NCBI RefSeq assembly: GCF_001642955.1
Contig: NZ_LWSK01000042.1
Coordinates: forward strand, 1-45,365
Length of the DNA stretch: 45,365 nucleotides
Source: Rubripirellula obstinata
GTDB taxonomy: Bacteria > Planctomycetota > Planctomycetia > Pirellulales > Pirellulaceae
Direction of reading: 5' to 3'
In this document: positions 19,029 through 30,456 of the stretch, piece after piece
Layout: each line of letters opens with the position of its first letter
Numbering within the stretch: the first letter of the stretch is position 1
The notes under the pieces: model-generated
Told to the model about the DNA's origin: nothing
The model's input: the letters and a program-made list of their open reading frames with translations, nothing else
The model's database searches: none
Made by a program: the position numbers and the translations under genes

Positions 19029-19886
19029 TCAGTAAACAAGTTCGATCCAGCGTCCGTCGGATTCGAGCTCCGCTTTCCATTGAGACCACAGAGATCCTGC
19101 GACTGCCGCTAGCGCAGCGTCGAGTTCTTTGAGCACCTCTTTGACGCCCGCAACGTAAACGTAGGTTGTGGGTTCAGCTAACAACTTGGTCAGCTCGACT
19201 GCGCGCGACTTGATGGCGGTTTCCCAATCGATGTCATCGTTCCAGCCGGGGCGTTTGCTAAGTGCATTGATCGCATCGAATGTTTCGCGATCGTAGTACA
19301 TCGCGAAGTCATCTTTCTCGTCGTTTCGATACAGCATATCCAGTCCCGCTTGCCCGCCATGGAAAAGCATGATTCGACCGGCAAAGCCGGGCTGGTCAGC
19401 GTAGATGCTTTTGACGAACGCTCGAAACGGTGCGATCCCGGTGCCAGCACTGATCAAGATCAAGGTTGCGTTGTAATTGGCTGGGAACTTGAAGGGTTGG
19501 CCATACGGGCCGGTGATCGTCAACGTATCGTTGGTGCCTAGATCGCAAAGATAGTTCGATGCGATTCCCGGAAACTCTTCGCCGCTGTAGGGATCAAGAT
19601 ATGTACACCTGCGAACGCAGATGCCGAATCGTTGTAAGCCTTCGCTGTTGGTTTGCGGAACGTCCGCAACGCCATAGAGCCGAAAGTGGTGATCGTGTCC
19701 AAAGGCTTCCGATCCCGGTGCCAGTACGCCTAGGTTCTGCCCCACTTTGGCTTGGAAGTCAGGGTCTTGAACCTCAATCGTAATTTCACGCACCTCGTGC
19801 TCCGAATCAGGCGGGCTGATTCTCTCGCTGCTTAGCACTGTGGCCTGATAAGTGGTTGCGACATCGTAATCCTGCAGTTGCATCAT
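19029..19886 (-). CDS. Plant-type ferredoxin-NADP+ reductase
   Basis: This flavoprotein of about 285 residues belongs to the plant-type FNR group, which moves electrons between ferredoxin and NADP(H). RLYGVA is the FAD-binding RxYS-type motif, ITGPYG and SAGTGIAPFRAF give the FAD/NADP nucleotide sites, and TYVYVAGVKEV is the NADP-side motif. The chain ends in IELVY with the terminal tyrosine that stacks on FAD. An open start at 19973 would overlap the previous gene by 44 bases. I prefer ATG at 19886 (or 19883), since GGAG at 19891-19894 sits 4-7 bases upstream and removes the overlap. It is the last gene of the Rnf-PFOR cluster and offers an NADPH outlet for reduced ferredoxin. Confidence 0.88.
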   Translation of the reverse strand: MMQLQDYDVATTYQATVLSSERISPPDSEHEVREITIEVQDPDFQAKVGQNLGVLAPGSEAFGHDHHFRLYGVADVPQTNSEGLQRFGICVRRCTYLDPYSGEEFPGIASNYLCDLGTNDTLTITGPYGQPFKFPANYNATLILISAGTGIAPFRAFVKSIYADQPGFAGRIMLFHGGQAGLDMLYRNDEKDDFAMYYDRETFDAINALSKRPGWNDDIDWETAIKSRAVELTKLLAEPTTYVYVAGVKEVLKELDAALAAVAGSLWSQWKAELESDGRWIELVY

Positions 19887-19929
19887 TTCGCTCCGATTGA
19901 GTCCGAGTTTTGGTAAATCATCTTCATTC

Positions 19930-20121
19930 TTATTCGTGTATGTTGTCGCACTGCGAATCGCATCGGCAGCCATGACAACCTAGCCGTCCTTGCAACGCAT
20001 CTTGTCCGTTTGCCGCCCCCGTGACGCGAATCCAAGACCACTGCACGGCCAACCACGCGACCAGGATCGTGGTCACGCCAAGCATTGCCTTGACGAGCGT
20101 TAAAAGCAGCGGTTCGATCAT
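19930..20121 (-). CDS. NqrM-like Cys-rich membrane miniprotein
   Basis: The 63-residue protein has one N-terminal membrane helix (about 4-29) and a short tail with four cysteines, GCHGCRCDSQC (Cys49, 52, 54, 58). The C-x-C-D-x-x-C end is the same spacing as the CDCDNPC-type end of NqrM, a small membrane protein required to mature the Fe centre between NqrD and NqrE of Na+-NQR. RnfA and RnfE are the homologues of NqrE and NqrD. The gene starts 14 bases after the rnfA stop, with AAAGGAC about 10 bases upstream of its ATG, and precedes the FNR gene. The homology is inferred from motif and context; the tail is shorter than in known NqrM. Confidence 0.7.
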   Translation of the reverse strand: MIEPLLLTLVKAMLGVTTILVAWLAVQWSWIRVTGAANGQDALQGRLGCHGCRCDSQCDNIHE

Positions 20122-20135
20122 TATTAAAATGTCCT

Positions 20136-20717
20136 TTAGCTAAACAGGCCAGCGAATCCCATGAAGCAGACCGACAGAAATCCCGCGATGATCAACGTGA
20201 TCGCGGTTCCCTTGACCAGCTCCGGTGTATTTCCAAGTTCCATCTTCTCTCTTAGTCCCGCCATCAGCACCAGCGCCAGCGTAAAGCCGATTCCCGCACC
20301 TGCTGCGTAGACGATGGATTGCAGAAATCCATAGCCCTTGTTGGTTTGGAAAAGTGCCACGGCAAGGATCGCACAATTGGTCGTAATCAGTGGCAAGAAG
20401 ATGCCAAGAGCTCGAAACAATGTCGGGCTGGTCTTCTTGATGAACATTTCGACCAACTGCACCGTCGAAGCAATGACCGCGATGAACGAGATCAATTTCA
20501 GGAAAGGCAGCCCGATCATCATCAACAGTGAATTGATGCCGAATGCGGCCATCGAACTGACCATCATCACAAAAGTAACGGCCCCGCCCATGCGAACGGC
20601 CGTGTCTAATTTTCCCGACACACCCAAGAACGGGCAAATGCCCAAAAAGTACGCCAACACAAAGTTATTGATCAGGCAAGATCCAATAAAAATTGACCAC
20701 AGTGGTTCGTCATTCAC
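20136..20717 (-). CDS. rnfA: Rnf complex subunit A
   Basis: RnfA is a six-helix integral membrane subunit of the ion-translocating ferredoxin:NAD+ oxidoreductase. The 193-residue protein keeps the family's LINNFVLAYFLGICPFLGVS with Cys28 and ITTNCAILAVAL with Cys115. These two cysteines pair with those of RnfE to hold an intramembrane Fe or [2Fe-2S] centre. The start is GTG at 20717, overlapping the rnfE stop (GTGA), with AGGAG 8 bases upstream. The next gene, the NqrM-like miniprotein, begins 14 bases after its stop. Length is normal for the family. Confidence 0.94.
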   Translation of the reverse strand: MNDEPLWSIFIGSCLINNFVLAYFLGICPFLGVSGKLDTAVRMGGAVTFVMMVSSMAAFGINSLLMMIGLPFLKLISFIAVIASTVQLVEMFIKKTSPTLFRALGIFLPLITTNCAILAVALFQTNKGYGFLQSIVYAAGAGIGFTLALVLMAGLREKMELGNTPELVKGTAITLIIAGFLSVCFMGFAGLFS

Positions 20718-21364
20718 AGCGTTGACTCCTTCGCTTCTTGCAGTCGCGATTTTCGTTGTTGGTACCAGTTAATCAACAACAGCCATCCGGCCAGCGTGAA
20801 AAAGCCACCTGGCGGCAACATCATCACCACCCACTCTTGATACGATTCACCAAACAGTCGGACATTGAACAACGAACCCGCGCCAAGGATTTCGCGAACA
20901 CCGCCCAGGCACAGCAGTGCCAGCGTAAACCCCACTCCCATGCCCAGTGCGTCCAGCGCTGATCGTGCCACGCTGTTCTGCGAAGCGAACGCTTCTGCGC
21001 GACCCAGAATCAAACAGTTGACCACGATCAGCGAAATGAAAGCTCCCAGGGCTTTGTGCAGATCTAAACTGACGGCCTGGATCGCGTAATCGACGATCGT
21101 GACGAAAGTCGCGATCACCAAGATGAATGTCACGATGCGTACTTGCTTGGGCACGACATTGCGAATGGTCGAAACGACGATGTTGGACATCAGCAAAACG
21201 AACGCGGTCGCCAAGCCCATCGCCAACGCGTTGATCGCGGTGTTGGTCACTGCCAATACCGGACACATGCCCAACACTTGCACAAACACAGGGTTCTGTT
21301 TCCACACGCCTTTAATAAAATCATCCGGCGTCACTGATTGTTCTTGTTCAAATCCCACCGCCAT
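20714..21364 (-). CDS. rnfE: Rnf complex subunit E
   Basis: RnfE is the membrane partner of RnfA in the Rnf complex. The 216-residue protein has six predicted helices. It carries QVLGMCPVLAVTNTAIN (Cys34) and LIVVNCLILGRAEAFAS (Cys117), the inverted-topology counterparts of the RnfA cysteines. A strong GGAGG at 21372-21376 lies 7 bases before the ATG at 21364; a GTG one codon earlier (21367) would overlap the rnfG stop as GTGA. Either start is possible. It is translationally coupled to rnfG upstream and rnfA downstream. Confidence 0.94.
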   Translation of the reverse strand: MAVGFEQEQSVTPDDFIKGVWKQNPVFVQVLGMCPVLAVTNTAINALAMGLATAFVLLMSNIVVSTIRNVVPKQVRIVTFILVIATFVTIVDYAIQAVSLDLHKALGAFISLIVVNCLILGRAEAFASQNSVARSALDALGMGVGFTLALLCLGGVREILGAGSLFNVRLFGESYQEWVVMMLPPGGFFTLAGWLLLINWYQQRKSRLQEAKESTL

Positions 21365-22050
21365 CACGGAGCCTCCTTTTCGCGTGTCGCAAAGTCCGCC
21401 TGATGGGGATGCAGTTTAGGAATCCATCGGCCCGTGCTTTCGCTGAGCATTTTGGTGATCGCACGCGAAGAAATCGTTGCGCCGGTGATCCCGTCAATCT
21501 GCCAAGCCTCTGTTTTCTCGCCCGGTTTAACGAATTCAATTGGGTTGGCGACTTCGCTCTTTTCAGCGTTCAGGCTGACGTCGAGTGATTCAAAGTTTGC
21601 TAGAAAGTTGGCGTTCTTTTCGATTTGATCGCCCAAGCCGGGCGTTTCGCGACTCTCCAAAACGCTGGTTCCGATTACCGCTTGTTTGTCGAACGAATAT
21701 CCGTACAGGATTCGGATGATATCGGCGTAACCCATGCCTTGGGTTTCAATCGCAAGCCCGATCAGTTCATCGTTATCATCGTATCCGGCAAAAACGAGGC
21801 CGGCAGCTTCGGAGTCGGTGGGTTCAGGTTTCAGTTCGCCAGTGGTTTCGTCGATTTGAAACGCCTTGCTTGTGCTAGCACCCGGCAATACTTCCAAGAT
21901 CGCGCGTTGTCGCATTGCGATTCGATTGTTTCGGATGATGGGCTTGGTGATTTCATCGACGGTTACGATCGCCAAAGCACAAACCAGCCCAACGCTTAAA
22001 ACGACACCGTAGATTTTCGCAGGACCAGCATCCGTCGAGTCGTTCGTCAC
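21364..22050 (-). CDS. rnfG: Rnf complex subunit G
   Basis: RnfG carries a covalently bound FMN on the outer face of the membrane and passes electrons in the Rnf complex. The 228-residue protein has one N-terminal helix (about 12-32). DGITGATISSRA contains the threonine (about 192) to which flavin is attached by ApbE. The frame stays open about 300 bases further upstream inside rnfD, but that part is not RnfG-like. The GTG at 22050 overlaps the rnfD stop (GTGA), has AAAGGAG 7 bases upstream, and gives a normal family length. No apbE gene is present in this window. Confidence 0.93.
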   Translation of the reverse strand: MTNDSTDAGPAKIYGVVLSVGLVCALAIVTVDEITKPIIRNNRIAMRQRAILEVLPGASTSKAFQIDETTGELKPEPTDSEAAGLVFAGYDDNDELIGLAIETQGMGYADIIRILYGYSFDKQAVIGTSVLESRETPGLGDQIEKNANFLANFESLDVSLNAEKSEVANPIEFVKPGEKTEAWQIDGITGATISSRAITKMLSESTGRWIPKLHPHQADFATREKEAP

Positions 22051-23072
22051 GATGGGACTCCTTTGACCGCGCTTCCGTAAACCTTTGGCTGGATCCAATG
22101 GTCGATGTGTGGCGAAGCGGCATTGCCAATCAAAATCGCGTACATCACACCATCGGGCATACCGCCCCAGACTCGAATCAGCACGGTCAGAAACCCGATC
22201 AGCACGCCGTAGACCACACAACCTCGATGAGTGATTGGCGAGCCCACCATATCGGTCGCCATAAACACGGCACCCAGCATCAGTCCGCCAGAAAACATGT
22301 GAAACATTGGGCCTGCGTAGCGACTTGGATCGATCAGGTGAAGAATCGTGCAAAAGATTGCGACCGTGCCAAGGATCGATACTGGAATCTGCCAGCTCAT
22401 CATCTTTCGAGCGACCAAATAAACGCCGCCGATAATGATTAGGATCGCGCAGGTTTCTCCGGTGGATCCTGTCGTTAGACCCATCAAAAGGTCAGGCGTC
22501 GAAGTTGCTTTCTCCTCAAACTTCCAAGCCGAAAGAGGCGTTGCGGCGGACACACCATCAACGTAGACGGGCTTGGTAAACGGCACCGTTAACGTTGACG
22601 ATGGCAACGACTGAAAACGCCCCTGCGTCTGCCGCATCCAACTGGTCATCGCGGCAGGAAACGCGGCTTGTAAGACGGCTCGCCCGATCAGTGCTGGATT
22701 GAAAGCGTTACAGCCAAGCCCGCCGAACAAAAACTTCGACCCGCCAATTCCAATGACGCCACCGGCCGCAACCATCCACAGCGGCAAACCAGGCGGCAAG
22801 GTCAATCCAAGCAGGATCCCAGTGATCGCCGCGGACCAATCGCCGACGGTGGTCGGGATGCCATTGATTCGGCACAACAGATGCTCCGTCAGCACACACG
22901 AAACGACTGCCGTGATCAAAACCAGCACCGCGGATAGGCCGAACGCATAAATTGAAAACAGGCACACCGGCAACATCGCCAGCACGACGTTGAACATGAT
23001 CGTATCGACACTCGACACGGCACCAATATGCGGCGAACTTCGGATCGTTAACGTTTTCAGTCCTTGCTTCAT
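22047..23072 (-). CDS. rnfD: Rnf complex subunit D
   Basis: RnfD is a polytopic membrane subunit with covalent FMN, homologous to NqrB, and is thought to be part of the ion path. The 341-residue protein opens with SSPHIGAVSSVDTIMFNVVLAMLP, typical of the family. GGLGCNAFNPALIGRAVLQ is also conserved, and DGVSAATPLSAWK contains Thr178, the flavin attachment site. The ATG at 23072 overlaps the rnfC stop (ATGA). A longer open frame upstream runs back into rnfC and is not used. Confidence 0.94.
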   Translation of the reverse strand: MKQGLKTLTIRSSPHIGAVSSVDTIMFNVVLAMLPVCLFSIYAFGLSAVLVLITAVVSCVLTEHLLCRINGIPTTVGDWSAAITGILLGLTLPPGLPLWMVAAGGVIGIGGSKFLFGGLGCNAFNPALIGRAVLQAAFPAAMTSWMRQTQGRFQSLPSSTLTVPFTKPVYVDGVSAATPLSAWKFEEKATSTPDLLMGLTTGSTGETCAILIIIGGVYLVARKMMSWQIPVSILGTVAIFCTILHLIDPSRYAGPMFHMFSGGLMLGAVFMATDMVGSPITHRGCVVYGVLIGFLTVLIRVWGGMPDGVMYAILIGNAASPHIDHWIQPKVYGSAVKGVPS

Positions 23073-24424
23073 TCGTTTGCCTTTGCTTTCCGAATGGCAC
23101 GTTTGGCGATCCGAAATTTCTGTACCAATGGAATGTGAGACGGACAAACAAACGTGCAACAACCACACTCGAAACAATCCATCAAGTTAAACTCTTCGAC
23201 CATGGCGTCGTGTTTATTCTGTGATGCCAATAATCCCAATTGCGAGGGATTCAGAAACAGCGGACACGCATCAACGCAGTAAGCACAGCGAATGCACGGG
23301 TATTCTTTGCGGCTAATCATCTTGCCCGTATCACGCTGCGAATACGCGATGACGCCGGCGGTGCCTTTTGTGATCGGAATGTCTAAACTACTGGCGGCAT
23401 TTCCCATCATTGGGCCACCCATGATCACCGTCGATAGATCGTCTTCGGTTCCGACTGCGTCCAAAATAAATCGCAGCGTGGTGCCAATCGGGATTCGATA
23501 ATTGCCCTTCTTTTTGACCGCTGGTCCGCCGACCGTGATGATGCGTTCATGGAGGCCCATGGCGTGCGGCAACAGTTTGCCAAGTTCGGCGGTGGTCCCC
23601 ACGTTGACGCAAACGACATGCACATCCAGCGGCAGTCCGCCGGAGGGAACTTCGCGGCCCAGGACAGCCGCGGTCAACATCTTCTCTGCGCCCTGCGGAT
23701 ACTTCACCGGTAACACTTCCACGGTGATTGGTGCGCCGATGGGAACGGCAGCTCGCAACCGGTCGGCTGCATCGACCTTGTTGGATTCAACCGCGATCAC
23801 CGTTTGGGTTGCACCGGTGGCTCGCATCAAATACGGGATGCCTTTCATCACGTCGTCGGCGTGTTCCAACATCACGCGGTGGTCGGTGGTCAGGTACGGT
23901 TCGCATTCGGCTCCGTTGATCAGCAACGTGTCGATAAACTTTCCATCGGGGATTTTCAGTTTGGCATGCGTTGGAAACCCTGCACCGCCCAAGCCCACGA
24001 CTCCGGTTTGCTGAACCGCAGCAATAATCGTTTCGGGACTGGCCGAATCGATGTCGCAAGGAGTTCCTTCGATGACCTCTTGAGTCGAGGCTGGAAACGG
24101 TTCGAGAAAAAACGCCGGTTCCATCTTTCCATTGATCGCCGGCGACAACGCGATGCGGCGAATCAGTCCGGTCGCCGGTGCATGAATCGGGACCGACATG
24201 AAACCGTCCGCCTCGGCAATGCACTGACCACGAGTGACTTCGGCACCTTCGCCAACAATCGGTAACGCCGGTTTGCCGATGTGCTGCGAAAGCGGAACGA
24301 CCAACAAAGGTGCGAACTGGAATTGCTGAATCGGCAGACCGCGGGTGTCATCCTTGGAATCGGGAGGATGAATGCCGTGGGCAAACGTCTTGCTGCCAAA
24401 AAGGTCGGTAACGCCAGCACTCAT
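23069..24424 (-). CDS. rnfC: Rnf complex subunit C
   Basis: RnfC is the peripheral subunit where NAD+ is reduced, homologous to NqrF/NuoF-type modules. The 451-residue protein has an N-terminal barrel-sandwich region (HAPATG near 80), the FMN/NADH loop VVGLGGAGFPTHAKL, NGAECEPY, and two [4Fe-4S] motifs: CIRCAYCVDACP (about 375-386) and CFECGCCTFVCP (about 413-424). It is of the shorter type without the long Ala-rich C-terminal extension of gamma-proteobacterial RnfC. Its ATG overlaps the PFOR stop (ATGA at 24421-24424), directly coupling PFOR and Rnf synthesis. Confidence 0.94.
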   Translation of the reverse strand: MSAGVTDLFGSKTFAHGIHPPDSKDDTRGLPIQQFQFAPLLVVPLSQHIGKPALPIVGEGAEVTRGQCIAEADGFMSVPIHAPATGLIRRIALSPAINGKMEPAFFLEPFPASTQEVIEGTPCDIDSASPETIIAAVQQTGVVGLGGAGFPTHAKLKIPDGKFIDTLLINGAECEPYLTTDHRVMLEHADDVMKGIPYLMRATGATQTVIAVESNKVDAADRLRAAVPIGAPITVEVLPVKYPQGAEKMLTAAVLGREVPSGGLPLDVHVVCVNVGTTAELGKLLPHAMGLHERIITVGGPAVKKKGNYRIPIGTTLRFILDAVGTEDDLSTVIMGGPMMGNAASSLDIPITKGTAGVIAYSQRDTGKMISRKEYPCIRCAYCVDACPLFLNPSQLGLLASQNKHDAMVEEFNLMDCFECGCCTFVCPSHIPLVQKFRIAKRAIRKAKANE

Positions 24425-27400
24425 GAGTTGTACTTCTCGGCCCGCGCGATCAACTTCTCAATTCCTTTTTCACTGTGATCTTTCGGCATCCCCGGATGAA
24501 TGACTCCGGCGGTGCAGCGTTCCGCCGCGACCACCAAATCCTTGAATGGTCCGCCTTGTGGATCTTTGATGATCGCCTTTTTCTGATCGTTGTAAACGAA
24601 GATGTGAGGGTTCAGATTGACGCATTCGTCGCACGACGTGCATTTCGGCGTATCGATCCAAGGGGCCATGTATCCATTGGCAGCGGCGGGCTGGCTGGAT
24701 GCGGGTTGGCCGGATGCGGGTTGGCCGGATGCGGGTTGGCTGGCGGGAGGCATCAGTGCAGGCATTGCTGACGCACTTGTGGTTTCTTCTTGGTCGACAC
24801 CTGTTCCTTCGCCCAGGGCCATCTGCATGATGCCGGTCGCAATGCGATTCGATACGTCGCGTTTGATTTCGGCTTCGATGGCGCCGCGATCAATTTGCTT
24901 CTCTCCCACCCTTGCCATCGACTTCAAAATCTTCCAGAAATCGCGTCGGTCTTCGCAGGATCGAACGATCGGATTGGCAACCAGCAATCGCATCAACTGC
25001 TGATCGCGATTAACGCTCCAAACGTACGGGAACAGCCCTTCGCGGTCTTCTTCTTCAAGCTCCAGGTACTCGGCAAGCGGGACCATGTTGTCGTTCCAGG
25101 TGTCCGGTGGAGCGGCCCGGTAATGTTTGCGAAAGCGAATCTCAGTCGCGGCAAAGTCCGCAAAGGTCATCGGCAAATCCATCGACTTCTGGCGCCCATT
25201 TTCGATGTACTTTAATTCGTACGTCGGCCAATCTGCTTCCATTGCCGGGTTGCCATCCAGTTCCAAGCACTCTTGCGGCGTCGTGCCAAGATCCGGGTTG
25301 TACCTGTACAGCGGATAGGCTCGTGATTCAACGGCTAGCTTTGCCTGATGAGCACTCATGTCGTCGCCGATCCCATGCTCAGGCTGGCAAGGCGTGTACA
25401 GCGTAAACATGGCTGGCCGACGAGACTTCAAGCCTTGGATGAACCCTTCGATCACGTGATTCGGGTTGGCGATTGAGCTTTGCATGATGTAGGTCGTTCG
25501 GTGCGCCATGCCGATTAGTCCGATCTCTTTGCGAATCTCTTCCTTGCCCTTGGCCGCATTGCCGTACTGGGCCATGTCCGAAATCTGACCAAAGAATCCA
25601 GACGTGCAAGCTTGGCCGCCGGTGTTGGAATAGACCTGCGTGTCCAGGATCAGCACTTTGATCGGTTTGCCTGACATCATCGCGCGAGACAGGTTCTGGA
25701 AACCAATGTCGAACATCGCCCCGTCACCACCGATGGCGACCACTGGCGGGCAAAGTTCCCATTCTTCGTCAGTGAATTGTTGCCAATCGAAATGAGTCAG
25801 CGATTCGGCGTCAACCGGCTTACCCGCCAATTCGCCTTCCGCCATTCGGATCGTCCTAAACCCGTCGGCCATCTTTGCCATGTGTCCTTCAAAGACGCCC
25901 ATCGCCACCGAACATGGATCCTGGAACAAGTGATTCGACCAGGGGAATGGATAGGGATTGAACGGATAAGTGCTGCCCCAAACCGACGAGCAACCCGTCG
26001 CATTCAAAATGCCCGCATTGGCTCGGCCACGCCCGGTGACGCCATCGCTGTACTTCCATTTCAATTCTTGCAGCTTGCCCAGCAAACTGGTCACGTGACG
26101 TAGCCATTGTTGGTCGATCGGCTCGCCGCCATTCTGTTTTTCAACACGCCCGGCAATCCCCGCCAGCGTGACGTCGCTGTTGCCAATGTCATCGATGATG
26201 CTTGCGATCGCCTTGGGATCGCTGACGTCAATTTCGTGGACCAGTTTTGCCTGAATTTGTTGTTGCAGTTTTTGAATCAATTCGTCCAGGTGAGCAACAT
26301 GACGCTCGACGCGAGGTTGCATTAAAGCTTCGATTGTTGCGGTGAAGATGTGAACGACACTCTTTTCACCGCAACCTAGGCAGGCACCGTCGCCACTGGC
26401 CAAGGCTGAGTAGTTTTCCTTTTCAAGCAGAATTGTTTCCAGCGCACCAATGCCTTCTTCGATGTCATCGACGCGAACGTATTTCTTGGGCGTGGTCGGC
26501 AAGTCCTTCCACAAATCCCAATTCTTACGCAGCGTTTCAACGGACTCTGTTGTTTGCGTGACCGTTCGCAGTGCATCGTCGTTGCAAACTTCCACGCACT
26601 CCATACAGCCTTTGCAGGTGTAGGGATTCACCGTGATGCTCAACAAACCGCCTTCGCCCGGCGACTTGTCTTCCTTGTTCGTGAAATAGGGTCGCGACAG
26701 AGCGAACTGGAACTCGCCCAGTTCTTCGCGGAATATCTCGAATTCATGTTTCAGTTCGTCACGATCAGACGTTTCCAGTTTGCTTTCTCGCAGCGTCTTT
26801 CCGATCGCTTCGTCCAGCATTCCCGAAACATTATCGTTCTCGTTTGCTTCGGTCAAAATCCCACGAAGGTTTGTTTCGACTTGACGAACCGCACCAGGCA
26901 AATGCTTTAGCTCGGCACCATGTTTGCGAACACGATCGACGACTGTATCGAACACCTGACTGACTTCATTGACCAATCCGGGGATCGCCGTGTCGGGACA
27001 AACCGTGTAACAACTTCCGCACGCGGTACAGTTCTCCGCGATCCACTGGGGATGCTGAAAACGAATTCCCGTCATGTCGCGAAACGCAGTCGTGACCGCG
27101 GGCATCGTTCCCATCCCGCTGAACGGATCGGTGATGATGTCGTTGCCCATCCCACGCGCGTAGAAGCTGCCGGTTTCCTCCCAGAAGCGATGAATGTCGC
27201 TCAGTGGCGTTTTTCCCTGCGGCAACGATTTAAGCAGGATCGGCAAATGCGGTTCTTTGCTGTGACCGTTACTTTGCTCGGACGGCTGTTCGATCTCGCC
27301 GTGCGTCACAGGTTTTACTTCATCGAAGCCGCGTTTGACGACCGCCAAATTCTCTTCAACGATTCGTGCCCCCTTCGCACCAAACTTGCTTTTAAGTTGC

Positions 27401-29382
27401 GTGTGAATCGCATCGATCAATCGGTCATTCGACAATCCAGCTTGCTCGGCGACCGGCGAAGCGGCAAAGAACGCACCTTGAAAAGCGATGCCTTGCATCC
27501 GGAGCTGCAAATCCGGGTCGCTCGCTTCTTCACGGGCAATCTTGAACGCATCCAAGTAGAACAGTTGGATGTTTTTGTCAGCGATGATGCGACGATAGGG
27601 TTCAGGAATGCTTTTCCAAACGGCAGCGGCGGACGGTTGGTCGCTTTGAATGATGAAGACGCCGTTTTCTTTTAATCCCGCCAGTGCGTTGGTATGCAGG
27701 AACACGTTTGGATCAGGAGACAGCACTACGTCAACGTAGAAGTACTCGCTGTTGACGCGAATCGGTTCGGGGGCTGCGGACAAGTAGTACGTCGTTGGCT
27801 GTCCTTTCTTTTCTGATCCGTATTTCGGGTTCGCTTTAATCTCGAAGCCCAGCAAATCGTACAGCGTCATCGCCAGGTTTTTACCGGTCGTGATCGCACC
27901 CCAACCGCCGACCGAATGCATCCGAGCGGTGATGCTGTTCTTCGGCATCAGATTGGGATTTTCGCTGCCGCGAATCGCTAAGTCACCGATGCCCGGGTAG
28001 GCTTGTTCCAGGTTTTCTTGGTGCAGTCGTTGTTTGGGGCTGACCGGGTTGTCTCGCAGGAAGTCGATCGAAAGATAAAAGAATCGACGCTGGCTTCCTT
28101 CGGGCAGCATGTTTTCGATCGCGCCGATGATTCCTTCGGGCTGCAAATCGCGGCTGCCCATTCCAAACGATCCTGAATACAACGCCGGTGCATCTTGAAT
28201 CGCAGTGTAGGTTTCCAGATCGGGGAAAGCTGGTTGAGCAACATCGCGGCCGTTTTCCATGCAACGACTTACCGTTGCCCGCACCTCTCGCATCAACGGC
28301 AATTCAACAGCGAGCGGTTGGTCGAGCCGTTCCAGAATCGTGACGCCCTTTTTGCCCTTTAGCACGCGGCTGATCAGGTCCGCCGGGAACGGTCGAAACA
28401 TCAACAAGTCAACGACACCAACTTTGATCTTACGTGTCTCTCGCAAATAATCCGCGACCGCTTCGGCCGTCGGGATCATGCTGCCTTGGCCCAGGATCAA
28501 ATAGTCGGCGTCTTCGGTACGGTAATTCTGAACGCGTTCGTAGCGGCGGCCGGTCAGAGCGTAAAATTCGTCGAAAGCGCGTTCGGTTAAGTCGGCGATA
28601 TGGTCAAAGAAGTACGGGCGCTGGGCCGCAACGCTTTGCATGTAGGAATCCTGGTTTTGCACCGTGCCCGACATGATCGGATTATCGACATCCCACAACT
28701 CAGGAATCCGCCGCCGAGTGTCACCGTAGATGATTCGCTGGGCCGGCGTCGGAGTTTGAATGATGTCGTCGGGGCGTCCCAGAAACTCCGCAATTAATTC
28801 TCGCTCGGGAATTTGAATTGATTCGATCAGGTGCGTTGTCAGGAATCCGTCCTGTGCGATTGCGCCTGGCGTCAGTGCTAGTTCGGCCACTCGGTGTGCG
28901 ACCAGGTTCAGGTCTGCAGCGGACTGAGCATCCTTGGCGAACATCTGAAAAAAGCCAGTGTCGTCCATGCAGTGGTAATCATCGTGGCCCGCATGCACAT
29001 TCAGCGTTGCCTTGGTCATCGCACGAGCACCAACGTTCAGAACATACGTCAATCGCTTACCGACCGCCGCGTACAACGATTCGTGCATGTACGCGATGCC
29101 CTGGCCGGACGAGAAATTACTGGCTCGCAATCCGGTCATCGACAACCCGGCCGTGACGGCCGCAGCGGCGTGTTCGCCTTCGGGTTCGATAAAGATCAGT
29201 GGGCGACCGGAGACGTTGACGTATCCCTTGGCTGCGTTTTCCGCCCAGTACTCGCCCATTTGAGTTGACGGTGTGATCGGATAGGCCCCCGCAGCGTCGG
29301 TTCCGTCACGCTCACACAATGAAACAGCGGTGTTGCCATCGACGGCAGCTTTTTTTCCGGGGTACTTAAATTGCGTCGTCAT
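24421..29382 (-). CDS. Extended pyruvate:ferredoxin oxidoreductase with fused ferredoxin
   Basis: A NifJ-type 2-oxoacid:ferredoxin oxidoreductase that would oxidise pyruvate and CoA to acetyl-CoA and CO2. At 1653 residues it is far longer than usual (about 1170-1200). The order is as in NifJ: domain I with AYPITPSTQMGEYW near 40, domain II, the gamma domain (HSVGGWGAITTGKNLA near 520), [4Fe-4S] motifs CTACGSCYTVCP (about 783) and CKGCMECVEVC (about 922), then the TPP domain with CLGCGEKS (about 1000) and GDGAMFDIGFQN (about 1214). Extra parts are a helical insert between the two clusters, a coiled-coil-like insert after CLGCGEKS, a repeated Gln-Pro-Ala-Ser linker (about 1530-1570) and a C-terminal ferredoxin domain with CTSCDEC plus a remote Cys (from about 1579). 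ATG 29382 is preferred over a TTG at 29469. Pyruvate is the likely substrate by similarity only. Confidence 0.9.
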   Translation of the reverse strand: MTTQFKYPGKKAAVDGNTAVSLCERDGTDAAGAYPITPSTQMGEYWAENAAKGYVNVSGRPLIFIEPEGEHAAAAVTAGLSMTGLRASNFSSGQGIAYMHESLYAAVGKRLTYVLNVGARAMTKATLNVHAGHDDYHCMDDTGFFQMFAKDAQSAADLNLVAHRVAELALTPGAIAQDGFLTTHLIESIQIPERELIAEFLGRPDDIIQTPTPAQRIIYGDTRRRIPELWDVDNPIMSGTVQNQDSYMQSVAAQRPYFFDHIADLTERAFDEFYALTGRRYERVQNYRTEDADYLILGQGSMIPTAEAVADYLRETRKIKVGVVDLLMFRPFPADLISRVLKGKKGVTILERLDQPLAVELPLMREVRATVSRCMENGRDVAQPAFPDLETYTAIQDAPALYSGSFGMGSRDLQPEGIIGAIENMLPEGSQRRFFYLSIDFLRDNPVSPKQRLHQENLEQAYPGIGDLAIRGSENPNLMPKNSITARMHSVGGWGAITTGKNLAMTLYDLLGFEIKANPKYGSEKKGQPTTYYLSAAPEPIRVNSEYFYVDVVLSPDPNVFLHTNALAGLKENGVFIIQSDQPSAAAVWKSIPEPYRRIIADKNIQLFYLDAFKIAREEASDPDLQLRMQGIAFQGAFFAASPVAEQAGLSNDRLIDAIHTQLKSKFGAKGARIVEENLAVVKRGFDEVKPVTHGEIEQPSEQSNGHSKEPHLPILLKSLPQGKTPLSDIHRFWEETGSFYARGMGNDIITDPFSGMGTMPAVTTAFRDMTGIRFQHPQWIAENCTACGSCYTVCPDTAIPGLVNEVSQVFDTVVDRVRKHGAELKHLPGAVRQVETNLRGILTEANENDNVSGMLDEAIGKTLRESKLETSDRDELKHEFEIFREELGEFQFALSRPYFTNKEDKSPGEGGLLSITVNPYTCKGCMECVEVCNDDALRTVTQTTESVETLRKNWDLWKDLPTTPKKYVRVDDIEEGIGALETILLEKENYSALASGDGACLGCGEKSVVHIFTATIEALMQPRVERHVAHLDELIQKLQQQIQAKLVHEIDVSDPKAIASIIDDIGNSDVTLAGIAGRVEKQNGGEPIDQQWLRHVTSLLGKLQELKWKYSDGVTGRGRANAGILNATGCSSVWGSTYPFNPYPFPWSNHLFQDPCSVAMGVFEGHMAKMADGFRTIRMAEGELAGKPVDAESLTHFDWQQFTDEEWELCPPVVAIGGDGAMFDIGFQNLSRAMMSGKPIKVLILDTQVYSNTGGQACTSGFFGQISDMAQYGNAAKGKEEIRKEIGLIGMAHRTTYIMQSSIANPNHVIEGFIQGLKSRRPAMFTLYTPCQPEHGIGDDMSAHQAKLAVESRAYPLYRYNPDLGTTPQECLELDGNPAMEADWPTYELKYIENGRQKSMDLPMTFADFAATEIRFRKHYRAAPPDTWNDNMVPLAEYLELEEEDREGLFPYVWSVNRDQQLMRLLVANPIVRSCEDRRDFWKILKSMARVGEKQIDRGAIEAEIKRDVSNRIATGIMQMALGEGTGVDQEETTSASAMPALMPPASQPASGQPASGQPASSQPAAANGYMAPWIDTPKCTSCDECVNLNPHIFVYNDQKKAIIKDPQGGPFKDLVVAAERCTAGVIHPGMPKDHSEKGIEKLIARAEKYNS
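24697..24741. repeat. 15-bp tandem repeat encoding the PFOR linker
   Basis: Three copies of GGATGCGGGTTGGCC (the last ends in T) run head to tail in frame, with degenerate flanking copies. On the coding strand they give repeated Gly/Ser-Gln-Pro-Ala-Ser units in the linker before the fused ferredoxin domain. Copy number may vary by slippage. Confidence 0.85.
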
Positions 29383-29583: not shown

Positions 29584-30456
29584 CTAAGTTGCAGTGTCAC
29601 GCATCTCTCCTTGGCGAATGACTTTCTTGGCTGCGTTCCCCTTGACGATGCCCTTGGTTTCGTCGATCCAGACAATCGCACCGGTGGGACATCGCTGTGT
29701 CGCATCGGCACTGAGCGAACCTTTTTGGTAGTCCACCACTGGCAAGCCATTTTTCATCTCGATCAGGTTTGGTGCGTCGGATGCACAGCGACCGCACGCC
29801 GTACAACCAACTTCGCATTCTTCTAAGACCTCGTCGCCATTTGCCAAAGACGAACAGGCAACCCAAAGCCGGTGACTGACTTCGTGGATCGAAAACAGGT
29901 CTTTTGGACATGCTTGAACGCAATCGCCACACGCCGTGCAACGATCTTCGTCGACGACGGGCAACTGGCTGGGACTCATTTCAATCGCGTCAAAGTCGCA
30001 AGCCACTTCACAATCAGCCAGACCTAAACAGCCCCAAAAACATGACTTTCCGCCACCGGCAACCAACGCCGCGGCTGCACAAGACTTGTGCCCTTGATAG
30101 TGAGCCCGATTTCGAGCGACGTTGTTTCCACCAGCGCAAGCCAACCGGGCGACTCGCTTTTCTTGCACGCCCACATCGACGCCCAAGTAGGCTGCGATCC
30201 GAGCATGGTCGGGCGGCGCGCTAACAGAACACTTCGCCGGAGGCTCAACGCCCGAAACCAAGACCTCAGCAAACGCTCGGCAGCCTGGGTACCCGCACGC
30301 ACCGCAATTTGTGTGCGGCAACATCGCTTCGACGTTGTCGATTCGCGGATCTTCCACCACATGAAGCCAACGATCCGCCACCACAAGCAAGGTCGCCAAT
30401 ACGGTTGCCAACGCTCCCACGGCGGCCAGTGAAGTCAGGAGTGCGGCGATGTCCAT
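29584..30456 (-). CDS. rnfB: Rnf complex subunit B
   Basis: RnfB takes electrons from ferredoxin and feeds them into the Rnf complex. The 290-residue protein has a membrane helix (about 6-28) and a [4Fe-4S] domain with Cys51, 54, 59, 76 (TNCGACGYPGC...C). A Cys-rich middle (CAGG, KSC, FWGC, ADC) is of the longer, clostridial/Bacteroides-like RnfB type. Two ferredoxin motifs follow. CTACGDCVQACP (173-183) is standard. CTACGRCASDAP (218-229) has Ala228 at the usual fourth position, with a remote RCPTGAI at Cys256, the arrangement of single-cluster ferredoxins. It is the first gene of the cluster, separated from the PFOR gene by a 201-base gap with a palindrome. No defined promoter motif is visible upstream. 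Confidence 0.92.
   Translation of the reverse strand: MDIAALLTSLAAVGALATVLATLLVVADRWLHVVEDPRIDNVEAMLPHTNCGACGYPGCRAFAEVLVSGVEPPAKCSVSAPPDHARIAAYLGVDVGVQEKRVARLACAGGNNVARNRAHYQGHKSCAAAALVAGGGKSCFWGCLGLADCEVACDFDAIEMSPSQLPVVDEDRCTACGDCVQACPKDLFSIHEVSHRLWVACSSLANGDEVLEECEVGCTACGRCASDAPNLIEMKNGLPVVDYQKGSLSADATQRCPTGAIVWIDETKGIVKGNAAKKVIRQGEMRDTAT

Follow-up and report, generated by a model that had tools for sequence, protein, structure and literature searches.

A four-cysteine mini-protein gene behind rnfA in Rubripirellula obstinata marks an Rnf subtype and possibly serves its iron-sulfur cluster

Introduction

According to the relevant sections of a 2025 review (PMC12174285), RnfA and RnfE hold a [2Fe-2S] cluster in the middle of the membrane by means of four cysteines, and insertion of the [2Fe-2S] cluster into NQR seems to need NqrM. 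The same sections describe NqrF as combining a single helix with a flexible ferredoxin domain and an FNR-like part. ApbE is a flavin-maturation enzyme; in V. cholerae its gene, together with nqrM, comes after the nqr genes, as stated in the corresponding parts of PMC12174285 and PMC6209661. In addition, the FeoB_associated family (PF12669) consists of small proteins with a Cys-rich motif that is commonly tied to iron binding in the portion of PMC8749426 dealing with it.

Here we describe a small gene, called mini, that lies behind rnfA in Rubripirellula obstinata. The window, that is, the whole stretch of DNA that was analysed, is 45,365 nucleotides long.

The rnf locus of the window and the mini gene

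All genes of the locus lie on the minus strand and follow each other in the transcription order rnfB-nifJ-rnfC-rnfD-rnfG-rnfE-rnfA-mini-FNR. The features are as follows.

29584..30456, minus strand: rnfB, full length (TIGR01944 76.3 bits, cut-off 68.7; PF04060)
24421..29382, minus strand: nifJ, pyruvate:ferredoxin oxidoreductase with a C-terminal ferredoxin domain (Pfam)
23069..24424, minus strand: rnfC (TIGR01945 479 bits)
22047..23177, minus strand: rnfD, start ambiguous (TIGR01946 331 bits)
21364..22143, minus strand: rnfG, start ambiguous (PF04205; TIGR01947 88.8 bits, below the cut-off of 102)
20714..21367, minus strand: rnfE (TIGR01948 246 bits, cut-off 213.4)
20136..20717, minus strand: rnfA (TIGR01943 238.4 bits, cut-off 229.3)
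19930..20121, minus strand: mini, 63-aa single-helix four-Cys protein (sequence, homologues, selection)
20020..20115, minus strand: codons of the predicted helix, mini residues 3-34 (AlphaFold2 model; K/R 44:2 in 22 minis)
19948..19977, minus strand: codons of the mini Cys tail, C49-x2-C52-x-C54-x3-C58 (sequence, Cys counts)
19029..19883, minus strand: FNR-like flavoprotein, a frequent 3' neighbour of mini (PF00175; start inferred)

The window RnfB comprises an N-terminal hydrophobic helix (recognized by eye), the FeS domain and further Fer4 domains. The possibility that mini is a stand-in for a missing RnfB was rejected for the window, since RnfB is present there. At its C-terminus the window NifJ has an additional ferredoxin domain with a single cluster (PF13370, residues 1576-1629), preceded by a Pro/Ala/Gln-rich linker. 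FNR/PetH-type NCBIfam models scored below their cut-offs on the FNR-like flavoprotein. Its ORF as called (19029-19973) overlaps mini; because four relatives align only from query residue 25-28 onward, the true start is probably 19883, and therefore the mini and FNR genes would not overlap.

The mini gene starts with ATG 14 bp behind the rnfA stop and encodes 63 amino acids. This agrees with the first-pass annotation, which had placed the gene next to the 3' end of rnfA and described a 63-residue protein with one helix and the cysteine spacing C49-x2-C52-x-C54-x3-C58. A structure prediction, which that annotation had also proposed, gave a single helix at residues 3-34 (AlphaFold2, mean pLDDT 92-98 in the first three ten-residue blocks) and a tail of low confidence. 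The cysteines that it had pointed out in RnfA (C28/C115) and RnfE (C34/C117) are likewise kept, those of RnfE being 35/118 if an upstream GTG is the start.

At E<=1 the window protein had no match among the Pfam and NCBIfam models, and annotation is therefore likely to overlook the mini-marked Rnf subtype. Among the mini relatives, one match to AimP_fam of NCBIfam (E 6e-4) and one to Fer4_9 of Pfam (0.0065), each in one of 12 members, were taken as chance. FeoB_associated (PF12669) was weakly matched by nine of the 16 members of set A4 (best E 4e-4; member 1 reached 18 bits, cut-off 27) and by none of the 15 members of set A3. Unlike that family, the window mini sits between rnfA and FNR, in an rnf and not a feo context. 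The mini of locus L171 also weakly matches the FeoB-associated Cys-rich family (E 0.0034).

Distribution of mini in the family, the phylum and other phyla

A first search with the mini protein as query gave 15 matches at E<=0.01 across 149 genomes from the family. Nine of these matches are small ORFs that follow rnfA immediately, and the remaining six were taken as chance. A search with the mini alignment, scoring at most 15 candidates per genome, found few, and most of its weak matches, which were not checked individually, are probably chance. Because short proteins are easily missed and the alignment search found few, rnfA was taken as bait. TIGR01943 matched at 208 bits or more in 19 of the 149 genomes, separated by a gap from the best of the remainder, which scored 199 bits and is NQR-type. 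Mini lies behind rnfA in 14 of these 19 genomes with true RnfA. Among the remaining five, RnfB follows rnfA in G042 and an NqrF-like [2Fe-2S] protein in G009, G104 and G122, while the contig piece of G073 ends behind rnfA. Three of the 14 family minis (G113, G088 and G038), and that of G198 as well, were identified as minis from their position, helix and cysteines; against a group-1 HMM built without them they scored 20.5, 14.3, 12.9 and 7.9 bits, respectively, the last three being at noise level.

TIGR01943 had 117 matches at E<=1e-57 in 94 of the 392 genomes surveyed in the phylum (53 loci, G000, G018 and G038 of the family set, and 61 more), and all of these were classified. Behind the rnfA-type gene lies mini in 21 of them and RnfB in 42; an NqrF-like protein is encoded there in 27, and the remaining 27 have none of these. 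The phylum threshold is loose, and the 27 NqrF-like loci may include some genuine nqr loci, with scores down to 196 bits, the NqrE range in the family. G435, which matched the references for both RnfB and the NqrF-like protein, is counted as NqrF-like. Mini was called from a hydrophobic stretch and at least three Cys in 40-115 aa, and the reference proteins were largely those of the window, so distant or odd minis could hide among the 27 loci classified as none. In the 69 phylum loci where RnfB or an NqrF-like protein follows rnfA, mini was sought and found in none.

The RnfA surveys are blind to mini and yet recover the same place, the pooled pN/pS of mini is 0.30 (seven independent pairs), and in other genera protein searches find matches at E=1e-15 to 1e-8. 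Therefore mini is beyond chance, a real and conserved gene, and the conservation in related genomes on which the first-pass annotation had made its proposal depend was indeed found.

Mini might also be a remnant of the RnfB N-terminus, or a paralogue of it, stranded behind rnfA once rnfB had moved in front of the other genes. In favour of this, none of the 42 loci with RnfB behind rnfA has a mini there. Like mini, the N-terminal part of RnfB (PF04060) has a helix, a short linker and C-x2-C. A genome search with mini alignment A1 matched the N-terminus of the window RnfB (E=0.057), and hhalign against 18 RnfB N-termini scored 22.9, compared with a shuffle maximum of 20.8 (0/120). However, this similarity is not robust: with 44 RnfB sequences the score fell to 13.4, which 26 of 100 shuffles reached, and the HMM search gave RnfB 11.8 bits, among noise. 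Meanwhile, mini differs from the RnfB N-terminus in having no Pfam match and in being encoded in addition to a full RnfB, and the purifying selection speaks against a mere relic. We regard this origin as very improbable.

Named records were scanned with the pattern D[AV]L[GQA]GRxGCH. All 16 loci found, from Planctomycetes CA13, two Opitutales MAGs, eight Myxococcota/Deltaproteobacteria MAGs, three Acidobacteria MAGs and two 'uncultured bacterium' MAGs (taxon labels of MAGs are the submitters' own), have mini behind rnfA and before FNR; owing to the pattern-based selection, the conservation of the D-L-G-R-G-C-H block in these loci is biased and their FNR count is not unbiased. Mini marks an Rnf subtype that is spread over about four bacterial phyla.

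Groups and single origin of the minis

Group 1, the window type, carries W-x2-V-Q-x2-W and then D-x-L-x-G-R-x-G-C-H-x-C, usually with two further Cys; group 2 minis are shorter. The profile comparison of the two groups scored 24.6, which none of 100 shuffles reached with the Cys columns fixed (21.1, reached by 4 of 120 shuffles, in an earlier comparison), suggesting that they form one family. Among the 17 phylum mini loci other than G421, G000, G018 and G038, G523 belongs to group 1 and has FNR, and the mini of G198 looks intermediate, with only 7.9 bits to the group-1 HMM.

Four Cys are found in 24 of the 27 group-1 tails (five in two, three in G198) and in nine of the 15 group-2 tails (three in four, five in two), the tail cut omitting one linker Cys in L235. 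Their spacing shifts from C-x2-C-x-C-x3-C in the window to C-x2-C-x5-C-x7-C or -x8-C in L223 and its kin. In the group-2 minis of L285 (G421), L171 (G454) and L207 (G488) the tail reads G-x-C-G-N-C, and no apbE match lies in the stretch examined behind them. K/R residues after and before the hydrophobic core number 44:2 in 22 minis, 40:0 in the 15 group-2 minis and 62:9 in 28 NqrMs; this excess predicts a cytosolic tail, the same topology as that of NqrM.

The helix is well predicted and its end (W-x2-V-Q-x2-W) well conserved, as would be expected of a structural or regulatory subunit that packs on RnfA/RnfE and whose cysteines bind Zn or form disulfides, with no part in cluster assembly. RnfH of A. 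vinelandii, in the section of the review that treats it, is an additional subunit of Rnf that has no cofactor (PMC12174285). However, the four Cys of mini are kept though the tail is otherwise of low identity, and we consider a purely structural or regulatory subunit unlikely.

Phylogenetic trees were reconstructed with FastTree and midpoint rooting, leaving out G122, G073, L220 (the same record as G087), L224 and L228. The RnfA+RnfE tree, built from 83 loci, unites all 44 that bear mini in a single clade (local support 0.993). When 61 loci were added, giving an RnfA tree of 144 sequences, all 45 mini loci again fell into one exclusive clade (support 0.998). The mini-bearing Rnf is a monophyletic subtype with a single origin.

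Comparison with NqrM

NqrM (DUF539, PF04400) resembles mini in its comparable size, one helix with positive charges after it, four Cys (in 25 of 28 NqrMs and 24 of 27 group-1 minis) and position beside the sister complex. By prediction, both proteins have a helix and a cytosolic Cys tail, and group-2 minis lie mostly beside apbE, as NqrM does. However, in contrast to NqrM, mini is positioned with Rnf and not with NQR, and homology between the two is not detectable. PF04400 did not match the window mini at E<=1; it matched one of 15 mini relatives (E=0.026), and a weak match in G037 (E=0.083) lies in frame on its mini. In profile comparisons with 28 NqrMs, all from one bacterial family, group 1 scored 12.0 and 12.3, values reached by 53 of 120 and 68 of 100 shuffles, and group 2 scored an unconvincing 18.6, reached by 20 of 100 shuffles; like the other hhalign values, these rest on small alignments. 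The group-1 HMM search gave NqrM 11.0 bits, which is noise level. In addition, the GSCGG segment that follows the helix in the NqrMs of the family is absent from all 27 group-1 tails. NqrM homology was therefore rejected, and the resemblance appears to be one of build only, a helix and four Cys. Of the NqrM-like reading in the first-pass annotation, the conserved, Rnf-linked helix and four-Cys protein beside an intact RnfA/RnfE cysteine site stands, whereas descent from NqrM, for which a family profile search had been suggested, does not.

The genome of the window has an NqrM of its own. The single PF04400 match there at E<=0.001, on contig C68, is the end of a 447-aa ApbE-NqrM fusion (PF02424 4e-87, PF04400 1.9e-5; locus L001). 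The fusion gene immediately follows a complete nqrABCDEF set, whose genes were identified by NCBIfam models scoring above their cut-offs (L326).

G000, contig C68, 1492-2832, minus strand: ApbE-NqrM fusion (PF02424, PF04400)

Among the listed NqrM frames of the family, 20 of 30 are at least 430 aa long, an indication that such fusions are frequent in this family, the Pfam check having been made on that of the window's genome alone. Thus, mini lies in the rnf locus and NqrM of the same genome in the nqrABCDEF locus. Since mini coexists with NQR and NqrM in the same genomes, including that of the window, NqrM does not appear to replace mini.

Gene neighbourhood of mini

The RnfA surveys yielded 32 distinct mini-bearing genomes (14 of the family, 17 of the phylum, and G421). 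The 3' neighbour of mini is FNR in 13, including G000 and G087, and ApbE in 12; neither was found within the stretch examined in seven (G018, G126, G198, G454, G488, G167 and G421), that stretch covering only about 0.5 kb, up to the end of the contig, in G167 and 1.5 kb in G421. ApbE follows mini in 12 of the 17 phylum mini loci (G421, G000, G018 and G038 apart), and in 11 of the same 17 mini overlaps the rnfA stop by four bases. The downstream gene varies within the clade (FNR, apbE or neither), while mini is constant.

Upstream, the order rnfB-nifJ-rnfCDGEA is found in the window, G013, G037, G112 and G023, and in all eight group-2 loci with an rnfB match on the rnfA contig. TIGR01944 was matched at E<=1e-12 in 15 of 16 genomes (15 of group 2, and G198), in some by the ferredoxin part only, and had no match at this threshold in G220; the match lies on the rnfA contig in eight of the 16, all eight with rnfB-nifJ-rnfC upstream. 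G018 has rnfB-rnfCDGEA-mini, without nifJ and FNR.

The neighbourhood with FNR raises the possibility that mini is a small redox subunit with a permanent Fe-S tail, which together with the downstream FNR would form a split, NqrF-like NADPH entry to the RnfA/RnfE cluster. Mini and FNR offer parts comparable to those of NqrF, that is, a helix with four Cys followed by FNR, in 13 of the 32 RnfA-surveyed genomes and in all 16 pattern-scan loci, and an NqrF-like helix-[2Fe-2S] protein occupies the same place in 27 of the 117 phylum loci. However, the parts are separate genes, no ferredoxin domain was found, the spacing of the cysteines shifts, and the window locus also encodes a full RnfB. Moreover, mini persists in genomes without any FNR homologue: none was found genome-wide at E<=1e-15 in the mini-bearing G018, G198, G454, G326, G309 and G358, the last four of which belong to group 2. 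This existence of mini without FNR weakens the split arrangement, which we regard as quite unlikely.

A possible role in handling the Rnf cluster

The explanation that we tentatively prefer, with belief and doubt nearly in balance, is that mini is an accessory protein of this Rnf subtype whose tail binds Fe or [2Fe-2S] transiently and helps to build or protect the RnfA/RnfE cluster. It is the best reading because mini is always behind rnfA in the clade, independent of FNR, ApbE and NifJ, and combines a membrane anchor with four loosely spaced Cys. The helix would anchor mini in the membrane beside a newly made RnfA/RnfE pair, with the four-Cys tail presumably on the cytosolic side. There the tail would most likely bind Fe or a [2Fe-2S] cluster for a limited time, and might thereby assist in building or protecting the buried [2Fe-2S] of RnfA C28/C115 and RnfE C34/C117. 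Floating Cys ligands would be more in keeping with a carrier than with a fixed electron-transfer domain. Such a role would be analogous to the one presumed for NqrM on NqrD/NqrE, but played by a separate protein family; a maturation role is plausible as a functional analogy, in which metal binding, the target, the maturation step and the steps from binding to transfer are all inferred.

The usual gene order of the subtype is rnfB-nifJ-rnfCDGEA-mini. Points in favour of this reading are the constancy of mini in its clade, the single origin, the closeness of its start to the rnfA stop, the retention of four Cys at varying spacing, the predicted topology shared with NqrM, the ApbE genes that often follow mini, and its presence in genomes that also have NQR with NqrM. 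On the other hand, homology to NqrM is not detectable, and mini is absent behind 96 of the 117 rnfA-type matches of the phylum; evidently, the cluster can form where mini is lacking. The number of Cys varies from three to five in group 2 and is three in G198, and the low HMM scores of G113, G088, G038 and G198 also count against the reading.

It is conceivable, though slightly less likely than not, that a factor for cluster insertion or protection was invented twice, as NqrM for NQR and as the unrelated mini once in a single Rnf clade. If mini does have the role proposed here, it would be, to our knowledge, the first known maturation factor dedicated to Rnf, as well as a gene marker of an Rnf subtype. 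A literature search found no description of such an Rnf-linked protein, in a body of texts from which most subscription papers were absent. As a constant, Rnf-linked, four-Cys membrane protein, mini offers a concrete gene for testing the assembly of the Rnf cluster.

Loci with NqrF-like proteins behind rnfA

Loci L066, L067 and L068 and further phylum loci combine a TIGR01943-scored Rnf with an NqrF-like Fer2 protein (PF00111) behind rnfA, and look like an RNF/NQR intermediate. In genus g10, the NqrF-like ORF behind rnfA ends without an FNR domain. In L290, L301, L307 and L308, an FNR match lies 3' of the NqrF-like protein behind the rnfA-type gene, and the protein is possibly a full NqrF.
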